Source of the DNA: Sphingomonas hankookensis
Lineage (GTDB): Bacteria > Pseudomonadota > Alphaproteobacteria > Sphingomonadales > Sphingomonadaceae
Reading direction: 5' to 3'
Assembly (NCBI RefSeq): GCF_028551275.1
Contig: NZ_CP117025.1
Coordinates: 558,001 to 622,000 of the forward strand
DNA: 64,000 nt
Below are positions 16,198 to 17,664 of this stretch, in pieces; position 1 is the stretch's first letter; every line of letters starts with the position of its first letter. Below the pieces are notes generated by a model. It searched no databases. It had not been told where the DNA came from and saw only the letters and a program-made list of their open reading frames with translations. The position numbers and the translations under genes were made by a program.

Positions 16198-16321
16198 GCC
16201 GCCCGCCGCAATCGTGGATTTAGGGTAAATTTCCGCGAAACCCGATTTTAGCAAAGGCGCGCTACGCCCATTCCGTACAATCCGGCACATCGGGTGCGGG
16301 GTGGGGGCAGAGGGGCCGGGC

Positions 16322-17404
16322 GTGTATCTGGAAAAAATCGGCGACGGTGGGGCATCGGCCGGACACGGTCTGATCCATGCCGTCCTCGCTTTTCTGGAGG
16401 ACCAGCGGCTCGATCCCACGCCGCTCAACTACAGCTTCGCCTACCGCGTCGTCAGCGAACCGGCGGGCGCGCTGGCGCTGGAGGTTGCGCGGCGGACCGA
16501 TGGCGGCATCCGCCTGACCGGCGGCGAGGTCGAACAGTTGGGCAATGCGATCGACGGGGCGGCGGATGTCGCCGCCGGGCGACCCAATGCTCCGCCCGTG
16601 ACGCCGACCGCTCCCGCGACCCCCGAACCGGACATCGCCGCCGCCGAAGCTTTGGTCACCGAAACGCTGCGCCAGGTCGCGGGCTTTGCGACGATGGTGT
16701 CGGAAATCCGCAGCGAAACGCAGGATTTCGGCCGCGACCTGGCCGCCAGCGCCGATGCGTTGCAACGCTCGACCCCCATCGCCAGCACCGATGCCGCCGT
16801 TGCCGAACTGGCACGGATCACCGCCGCGATGCGCGCGCGGGTCGAGATTGCCGAGGCGCGGCTGGAACAGGCGACGCGCGAGGCGAGCGACCTGCGCGAA
16901 CAACTGGCCGCCGCGCATGACGATGCGCGCCGCGACCCGCTGACCGACCTGCCCAATCGCCGCGCCTTCGAGGAAGCGGTCGAGGCTGCCCAGCATGGGC
17001 CGGTCCATATCGCGATGTGCGATGTCGATCATTTCAAGGCGATCAACGACCAGCACGGCCATCCGGTCGGCGACCGCGTGTTGCGCGCCATCGGGACGAC
17101 GCTGGCGCGCGAATGCCCCGGCCATCTGGTCGCGCGCTATGGCGGGGAGGAATTTGCCGTGCTGATCACCGGCATCGGCACCGGCGCGGCCCGGGCGCTC
17201 CTGGAAAAGGCGCGGATCGCGGTCGGCAAGCGCCGCTATCGCCTGCGCGAGAGCGATACGCTGGTCAACGGCATCACCCTGTCGGCCGGATTGGTCACGA
17301 TGACGCCGGGCGAAAGGCTGTTGTCGGCGATCGAGCGGGTCGATGCCCTCTTGTACGAGGCGAAGCGCCATGGCCGCAACCAATCGGTTGGCGAAAATGG
17401 CTGA
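16322..17404 (+). CDS. Diguanylate cyclase (GGDEF) with unassigned N-terminal domain
   Basis: Makes cyclic di-GMP from two GTP. The GGDEF domain begins at RRDPLTDLPNRRAFEE (~203-218) and carries the active-site GGEEF at 274-278. No RxxD inhibitory site precedes it. The first ~100 residues (NYSFAYRVVSEPAGALALEV) form an unassigned domain, followed by a Pro-rich linker and a helical coiled-coil segment (~160-203). No membrane segments are seen, so it is cytosolic. GTG at 16322 has GAGGGGCC just upstream; GTG at 16301 is the alternative. It precedes the sigma-54 promoter region by ~80 bases. Confidence 0.88.
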   Translation: MYLEKIGDGGASAGHGLIHAVLAFLEDQRLDPTPLNYSFAYRVVSEPAGALALEVARRTDGGIRLTGGEVEQLGNAIDGAADVAAGRPNAPPVTPTAPATPEPDIAAAEALVTETLRQVAGFATMVSEIRSETQDFGRDLAASADALQRSTPIASTDAAVAELARITAAMRARVEIAEARLEQATREASDLREQLAAAHDDARRDPLTDLPNRRAFEEAVEAAQHGPVHIAMCDVDHFKAINDQHGHPVGDRVLRAIGTTLARECPGHLVARYGGEEFAVLITGIGTGAARALLEKARIAVGKRRYRLRESDTLVNGITLSAGLVTMTPGERLLSAIERVDALLYEAKRHGRNQSVGENG

Positions 17405-17416
17405 TAAATGGGGTAA

Positions 17417-17470
17417 TGCACCGGCAAGAATTGCCAACACCGTGCACTTTGTAAAAACTATTGTTACAAA
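17417..17470. promoter_or_regulatory. Cluster of inverted repeats upstream of the sigma-54 promoter
   Basis: GGCAAGAATTGCC (17423-17435) is a perfect 5-base inverted repeat around GAA. It is flanked by TGCAC (17417-17421) and GTGCA (17442-17446). TTTGTAA (17448-17454) and TTACAAA (17464-17470) form a second, 7-base inverted repeat. Both lie 16-70 bases upstream of the -24 element, where an enhancer-binding activator or another regulator could bind. The regulator is unknown. Confidence 0.45.
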
Positions 17471-17485
17471 TCAATAACATATTAA

Positions 17486-17502
17486 TTGGCACGCCCCCTG
17501 CA
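17486..17502 (+). promoter_or_regulatory. Near-consensus sigma-54 (-24/-12) promoter
   Basis: The site TTGGCACGCCCCCTGCA matches the sigma-54 consensus TTGGCACG-N4-TTGCA at every defined base except one (C for T at the start of the -12 block). GG (17488-17489) and GC (17500-17501) are exactly ten bases apart, as required. Transcription should start near 17513, 44 bases before the ATG of a 35-residue peptide. It is in AT-rich non-coding DNA, which makes a chance match less likely. Confidence 0.7.
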
Positions 17503-17556
17503 ATGCAATGTGCATAGCCGGCGAGATGGCTCGCACGGCACCAGGGAGTAGCCACC

Positions 17557-17664
17557 ATGATCCGTACCGAAACCCTTCGCCAGCACGTCGCCGCCCTGTT
17601 CGGTGCGCTGCTCGTCTCCACGCTGTTGCTGTCGGTCGCCGCGCCGGTCGTGCCGATCGCCTGA
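17557..17664 (+). CDS. 35-residue single-span membrane peptide
   Basis: A very short gene with a good ribosome binding site (GGGAG, nine bases before ATG). The peptide starts with a charged/polar MIRTETLRQH, then one hydrophobic stretch of about 20 residues (AALFGALLVSTLLLSVAAP) and ends VVPIA. That is the form of a small inner-membrane peptide or an uncleaved signal-like anchor. I do not recognise a function. It is the only gene downstream of a strong sigma-54 promoter match, and its stop is two bases from the convergent FAD-dependent gene. The promoter and ribosome binding site are the main support. Confidence 0.6.
   Translation: MIRTETLRQHVAALFGALLVSTLLLSVAAPVVPIA

Follow-up and report, generated by a model that had tools for sequence, protein, structure and literature searches.

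A conserved 35-residue membrane peptide gene of Sphingomonas hankookensis is probably a stand-alone member of the PspF/sigma-54 phage-shock regulon

Introduction

Behind a diguanylate cyclase gene of Sphingomonas hankookensis lies an open reading frame of only 35 codons that appears to have a sigma-54 promoter to itself. Is such a small peptide made, is the promoter element genuine, and to which activator and which cellular response would the pair belong? The locus is part of a stretch of 64,000 nucleotides (contig NZ_CP117025.1, positions 558,001 to 622,000), the whole of which we call the window. An initial annotation of this DNA had suggested a small-protein regulator of envelope, exopolysaccharide or c-di-GMP-linked behaviour. 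Our comparison with related genomes points with good confidence to another, more specific answer, namely that the gene belongs to the PspF/sigma-54 phage-shock regulon as a unit of its own and encodes a single-span inner-membrane peptide of ~35 residues. We place the peptide in this regulon because of the control sites found across the family and because of the operon linkage of its homologues. Loci of the pspF-pspABC type occur in some Alphaproteobacteria according to the accessible part of a 2024 paper (PMC11237479). A literature search limited to journal articles readable without subscription (preprints excluded) gave, among the matches listed, none on a PspF regulon or on such peptides in sphingomonads.

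Results

The locus in the window

The features of the locus are listed in Table 1. The -24 part of the promoter, TTGGCACG (17486-17493), is followed by CCCC and then by CTGCA (17498-17502). The GG is located at 17488-17489 and the GC at 17500-17501 with 10 bases in between, just as the initial annotation had it. The predicted product, MIRTETLRQHVAALFGALLVSTLLLSVAAPVVPIA, contains one strong hydrophobic span of 19 residues with a mean Kyte-Doolittle value of 2.34. A purine block with the consensus CAGGGAG is present in the ribosome-binding-site region of 36 aligned relatives. The upstream gene had been described as a diguanylate cyclase and its domain match confirms this.

The -24/-12 pattern by itself is not informative: with at most two mismatches it occurs 273 times in the S. 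hankookensis genome compared to 368 times for the reversed control. As it is no commoner than the control, a single match proves nothing, and we hold the element to be real because it is conserved in the relatives.

Table 1. Features of the peptide locus, in positions of the window; distances of the PspF-type sites run from the site centre to the T of the -24 element.
Feature	Position	Strand	Remarks
GGDEF diguanylate cyclase gene, upstream neighbour	16301..17404	+	PF00990, 115.6 bits; GGEEF signature read directly
Degenerate PspF-type site TGGCGAAAATGGCTG	17389..17403	.	3 mismatches; centre 91 nt upstream; overlaps end of cyclase gene
Degenerate PspF-type site TGGGGTAATGCACCG	17409..17423	.	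2 mismatches; centre 71 nt upstream; taken singly no better than chance (P 0.23)
Degenerate PspF-type site CGGCAAGAATTGCCA	17422..17436	.	3 mismatches to TGGYG-N5-CRCCA; centre 58 nt upstream
Inverted repeat TTGTAAAAACTATTGTTACAA	17449..17469	.	not conserved
IHF-like site AATCAATAACATA	17469..17481	+	1 mismatch to WATCAANNNNTTR; between activator sites and promoter
Sigma-54 -24/-12 promoter TGGCACGCCCCCTGCA	17487..17502	+	read directly; predicted start ~17513
5' leader hairpin near predicted transcript start	17517..17539	+	predicted fold
Ribosome binding site AGGGAG	17543..17548	+	8 nt before ATG
35-aa single-span membrane peptide gene	17557..17664	+	ATG at 17557; stop included, ends at 17664

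Conservation of the peptide

A search with a single peptide sequence gave matches in 51 of 251 genus genomes and in 2 of 149 sampled family genomes; for the family it was too insensitive and we set it aside. With a 24-row profile the peptide was detected (E ≤0.01) in 234 of the 251 sampled genus genomes and in 215 of the 223 of good quality, where the quality mark was set at 90% completeness and at most 5% contamination. Of the 17 genus genomes in which it was not detected, 9 fall below this mark. In the loci examined with this profile, each of the 135 matches with E <1e-3 (120 non-redundant) begins with an ATG at the expected start or close to it, measures 34-41 aa and ends in a small/apolar tail. 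Across an alignment of 54 rows two prolines are invariant, A35 is nearly invariant and the C-terminal residues are among the best conserved. For 43 independent pairs we computed a dN/dS of 0.33, and between the window and one relative (L021) the peptide is identical, with 11 synonymous and 0 nonsynonymous changes. These substitution patterns indicate that purifying selection acts on the protein sequence and they support the earlier idea that a tiny membrane peptide is translated here.

It could still be argued that there is no functional peptide and that the locus produces a regulatory RNA or carries a fortuitous ORF. The leaders of the family are enriched in 5' hairpins (see below) and the ORF is tiny and without a known domain: the window peptide matches nothing in Pfam (E 0.01) or NCBIfam, and when all 54 members were compared with Pfam no family matched more than one of them (best E 0.023). 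A database search with a 41-aa member returned five proteins, one labelled 'hypothetical protein' and the others without a name. Against this stand the similar ATG position, length and C-terminus across the 135 matches as well as the substitution patterns, and we regard the absence of a functional peptide as extremely improbable.

Some loci hold more than one small ORF. At L134 and at L228, L235, L236 and L248 one promoter precedes a tandem of peptide copies. At 89 of 118 loci (e.g. L030, L039 and L042) the peptide is succeeded by another membrane ORF, of ~30 aa, which the window does not have.

Conservation of the promoter and the leader

The -24/-12 element was found in 118 of 119 non-redundant loci, at 10-11 of the 12 consensus positions and 50-63 nt before the ATG. 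One further non-redundant locus (L127) was left out of the count as its upstream sequence is missing. The single locus without the element is one copy of the tandem pair at L134. Farther upstream, at 280-400 nt, a stretch taken as the control reached a score of at least 9 in 1 of 119 loci. The dedicated sigma-54 promoter proposed by the initial annotation is thus supported. That annotation had also named conservation in relatives as the check to run, and with these counts for the peptide and the promoter its reading was not refuted.

The fold predicted for the leader of the window is unremarkable on its own (z -0.83). Stems of at least 6 pairs are formed by 42% of 81 leaders compared to 5.8% of shuffles. 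RNAalifold predicted no pair on a MAFFT alignment of the leaders, possibly owing to a one-base shift in loop register between clades. The covariation support for a stem is mixed: a chosen stem of 5 pairs is formed by 79% of the cells and by 75% in column shuffles, changes on both sides are seen at 4 of its 5 pairs, and the partner slid by one column gave a covariation score of 0.269 compared to 0.230 for the stem as named. A known RNA in the leader was rejected, the search of Rfam (E ≤1) having returned one microRNA match at chance level (E 0.97).

Sites upstream of the promoter

We then looked for activator sites in the upstream regions of 94 peptide loci, a set of reduced redundancy. Allowing up to one mismatch, 62% of them have the palindrome TGGYG-N5-CRCCA, compared to 1.9% of dinucleotide shuffles. 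The spacer is exactly 5; other spacers from 0 to 12 reach at most 16%. The centres of the palindromes fall mainly into the bins at 60-64, 80-84 and 100-104 nt upstream of the -24 element. IHF-like sites were counted within 45 nt upstream of the -24 element, with at most one mismatch to the IHF consensus WATCAANNNNTTR. They were present in 38% of the 94 loci compared to 5% of shuffles, and IHF may bind between activator and promoter.

In the window itself the palindromes are degenerate. The site CGGCAAGAATTGCCA lies just outside the 60-64 nt bin, which holds 27 of the 54 loci with a best score of at least 6 on the pspA-derived matrix described below. The best match of the window promoter to that matrix is TGGCGAAAATGGCTG with 2.5 bits (P 0.03 in shuffles), and the number of sites that it carries at up to two mismatches is no higher than expected by chance (P 0.23). 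For this strain the PspF claim therefore rests on the family, and as the sites are weak the response to PspF may be weak or lost here.

Two inverted repeats had initially been taken for activator sites. This holds in so far as the family has conserved sites upstream and CGGCAAGAATTGCCA is near their position, albeit with 3 mismatches. It does not hold for the repeat TTGTAA-N9-TTACAA, which at no more than one mismatch is limited to 3 of 118 loci (a single species accounts for two) and which we rejected as a general activator site. In its own genome it is the only mismatch-free match to TTGTNA-N9-TNACAA, and judging from its distribution the repeat is lineage-specific.

Which activator

The S. 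hankookensis genome codes for seven enhancer-binding proteins. Two were assigned by NCBIfam equivalogs, PspF (TIGR02974, 465 bits, cut-off 443.55) and PrsR (TIGR02915, 671.8 bits, cut-off 502.6). From their sequences and neighbours the other five are read as NtrC, NtrX, FlbD, DctD and an orphan response regulator. The pspF gene adjoins the pspA operon in divergent orientation, and its product shares 51% identity with E. coli PspF, the C-terminal HTH being similar too. The orphan protein, of the response-regulator type, is encoded at about 151145 of contig C1 (L153). PrsR is encoded at about 385162 of the same contig (L154), where a kinase-like gene precedes and a TPR-like gene follows, and the genome seems to possess a PEP-CTERM regulatory set.

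To obtain a description of PspF sites that is independent of the peptide loci we used the promoters of pspA, a gene that 60 of 61 genus genomes possess. A sigma-54 promoter was found in the expected place at 24 of 30 pspA loci, and the six loci where none scored at least 10 there were set aside. The best site is of the type CTTGGCGTATTTTCCCAA and is located 72-85 nt upstream (81-85 nt in 23 of the 24 promoters); the pspA promoter of S. hankookensis also has a consensus-like PspF-type site. The matrix built from these 24 promoters scores at least 6 bits in 57% of the 94 peptide promoters compared to 1.1% of shuffles (p about 1e-49), while ~43% of the peptide promoters stay below 6 bits.

The same type of site is present at known PspF targets. 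In E. coli K-12 we found sites 93 nt (1 mismatch) and 73 nt (2 mismatches) upstream of pspA, 20 bp apart, and a single site 60 nt upstream of pspG (2 mismatches). These numbers are like those in the accessible part of PMC3709507, according to which there are two UAS at pspA and a single one at pspG, with assistance from IHF. In shuffles of the E. coli stretches pspA gave P 0.02, with one of its two sites inside the stretch, and pspG gave P 0.10, which is not above chance.

The palindrome combined with the promoter pattern matched 22 times in 101 genus genomes compared to 2 times for the reversed pattern. The matches comprise 14 peptide loci, one pspA operon headed by a small membrane ORF (L166), three PspC-like genes (L165, L170, L177), three loci coding for proteins with an RYC motif (L168, L178, L180) and one probable chance match (L175). 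The PspC-like genes are stand-alone genes of ~100 aa with their own sigma-54 promoter and PspF-type site. Only the protein of L170 was tested, and it contains a PspC domain (28.2 bits, cut-off 25). The RYC proteins are small and secreted-looking, have a second Cys and are encoded behind a PspF-type site and a sigma-54 promoter. The one from L168 has no match in Pfam. These proteins are possible further members of the regulon.

Several observations could be taken to favour a different activator, either PrsR acting at a PEP-CTERM/exopolysaccharide box or one of NtrC, NtrX, FlbD, DctD and the orphan regulator. All are among the seven proteins of this genome, and the window's own PspF-type sites are weak. 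In genes with a PEP-CTERM box, too, a sigma-54 promoter is combined with an upstream activator motif. The accessible text of PMC1569441 describes this box as a motif 1 with TTTACA that ends 32-92 nt before the sigma-54 element, and the repeat TTGTAA-TTACAA recalls this motif. However, its 3' end is only 17 nt from the -24 element and thus outside the described range, it is not conserved, and the peptide has no PEP motif. The PrsR/PEP-CTERM reading was rejected on the basis of motif, spacing and conservation. Furthermore, the site that is conserved in the family is shared with the pspA promoters and similar to the E. coli targets of PspF. Comparing these sites, PspF is most likely the activator of the peptide promoter, and control by any of the other proteins is very improbable.

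Homologues outside the genus and the cyclase neighbour

A 54-row profile detected the peptide (E ≤0.001) in 54 of 328 family genomes and 18 of 96 genera, and 47 of the 54 genomes lie outside the genus. We examined 24 loci from these 47 genomes. Within 400 nt the next gene is pspC in 19 cases and pspA in 4, compared to 0 for the reverse-strand control. For example, the 61-aa protein encoded downstream in Sphingobium indicum BiD32 (L216) has a PspC domain with 56.3 bits. The promoter was found with at least 10 of 12 positions at 23 of the 24 loci, counting one that is clipped at a contig end (L245); the one that lacks it (L233) is the second copy in a tandem. In at least six genomes (G046, G053, G464, G500, G512 and G542) the homologue is located 195-222 nt from pspF in divergent orientation. 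PspF itself was detected in 306 of the 328 family genomes, leaving 22 negative; all 54 with the peptide are among the 306, which is weak evidence as PspF is so common in the family. Within the genus none of 118 loci has a psp gene downstream of the peptide within 800 nt.

A small membrane ORF also precedes pspA in the genus: at 23 of the 24 pspA promoters an ORF of 35-51 aa was found in this place. The S. hankookensis genome has one of 47 aa between the sigma-54 promoter and pspA (L156/L206, about 2566616 of contig C1).

The distribution of the diguanylate cyclase is different. The C-terminal GGDEF signature is located directly upstream of the peptide in 104 of 118 genus loci and downstream in none of them, and such an arrangement might suggest that the peptide works with the cyclase, for instance as its membrane anchor or inhibitor. 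But the peptide has its own sigma-54 promoter, and the signature is absent upstream of all 24 loci from other genera, where pspC or pspA is next in 23. As the cyclase adjoins the peptide only within the genus we read it as a conserved neighbour and not as a partner; a c-di-GMP partnership is very improbable. Of the role first proposed for the peptide, the exopolysaccharide and c-di-GMP part finds no support. The link to the cell envelope is supported and can be refined, with PspF as the most likely activator, to the phage-shock regulon and thus to inner-membrane stress.

Discussion

Considering the sequence evidence as a whole, the peptide is most likely a new small component of the PspF/sigma-54 phage-shock regulon, a response that is known as such. 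The closest parallel is PspG of the enterobacteria. It is likewise a small inner-membrane protein whose gene lies apart from the pspA operon and has a sigma-54 promoter and a PspF site to itself, and in E. coli the type of this site and its distance of 60 nt resemble those of the peptide family, although that single site gives P 0.10 by shuffles. PspG is larger, with 80 aa (a 243-bp gene) compared to 35 aa. The Pfam family PspG (PF09583) was matched by none of 54 peptide members (E 0.1) and in none of 101 genus genomes, whereas the E. coli control was positive. In its predicted control the peptide is like pspG, with no sequence relation found between the two.

The small membrane ORF in front of pspA has a similar layout to the window peptide, with a polar head, one span and a small/apolar tail (often ..GAVGPAIA). 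It is the first ORF behind a PspF-type sigma-54 promoter and, unlike the window peptide, it heads the pspA operon. The sequence relation between the two is weak and mainly runs via members from other genera reached by the same profile. E. coli YohP, too, is a tiny membrane protein with one span and a link to the phage-shock response, which it provokes by lowering the membrane potential according to the accessible part of PMC12719787.

We propose the following mechanism. Stress at the inner membrane would draw PspA off PspF, and PspF would then bind the palindromes 60-90 nt upstream of the promoter. IHF would bend the DNA between these sites and the promoter so that PspF could remodel the sigma-54 RNA polymerase bound there. 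A short mRNA with a 5' hairpin would be transcribed and translated, and the peptide would be inserted so that the Arg-containing head faces the cytoplasm and the short P-x-x-P-I-A tail the periplasm. Finally, it may act in the membrane together with PspA, PspB and PspC, either limiting the damage or tuning the response. This last step is the least certain one and we put it forward only tentatively.

Within the same regulon the peptide could also be secreted. Residues 1-28 would then be a signal peptide that is cut near S-A-A/V-A-A, and the released P-x-x-P-I-A piece would be active in the periplasm or beyond as a signal or an effector. The layout of the peptide is like that of a signal peptide, the best conserved residues include those of the C-terminus with both prolines, and some of the peptides in front of pspA have longer tails. 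However, the released piece would be just 6-8 residues long and the length of the peptide is nearly constant (34-41 aa). We consider this unlikely and prefer a peptide that stays in the membrane.

A broader idea is that most PspF transcripts of the Sphingomonadaceae, whether from the pspA operon, from the pspC operon in other genera or from the stand-alone unit, start with a tiny single-span peptide and that all these peptides form one divergent family. They might then be an unrecognised effector or feedback arm of the response that is translated first and in excess, in place of the enteric PspG and PspD. We regard this as a serious possibility but do not lean towards it. Our confidence was lowered slightly because of the stand-alone PspC-like genes, which start 49 nt after their promoters and in all three cases leave no room for a leading peptide.

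If the peptide belongs to the regulon as proposed, the site, the spacing and the targets of PspF can be read across one alphaproteobacterial family, and the regulon would include a family of peptides of fewer than 40 residues that is absent from Pfam and NCBIfam. As these peptides are widely conserved, the role of tiny membrane peptides in envelope stress becomes open to direct testing.
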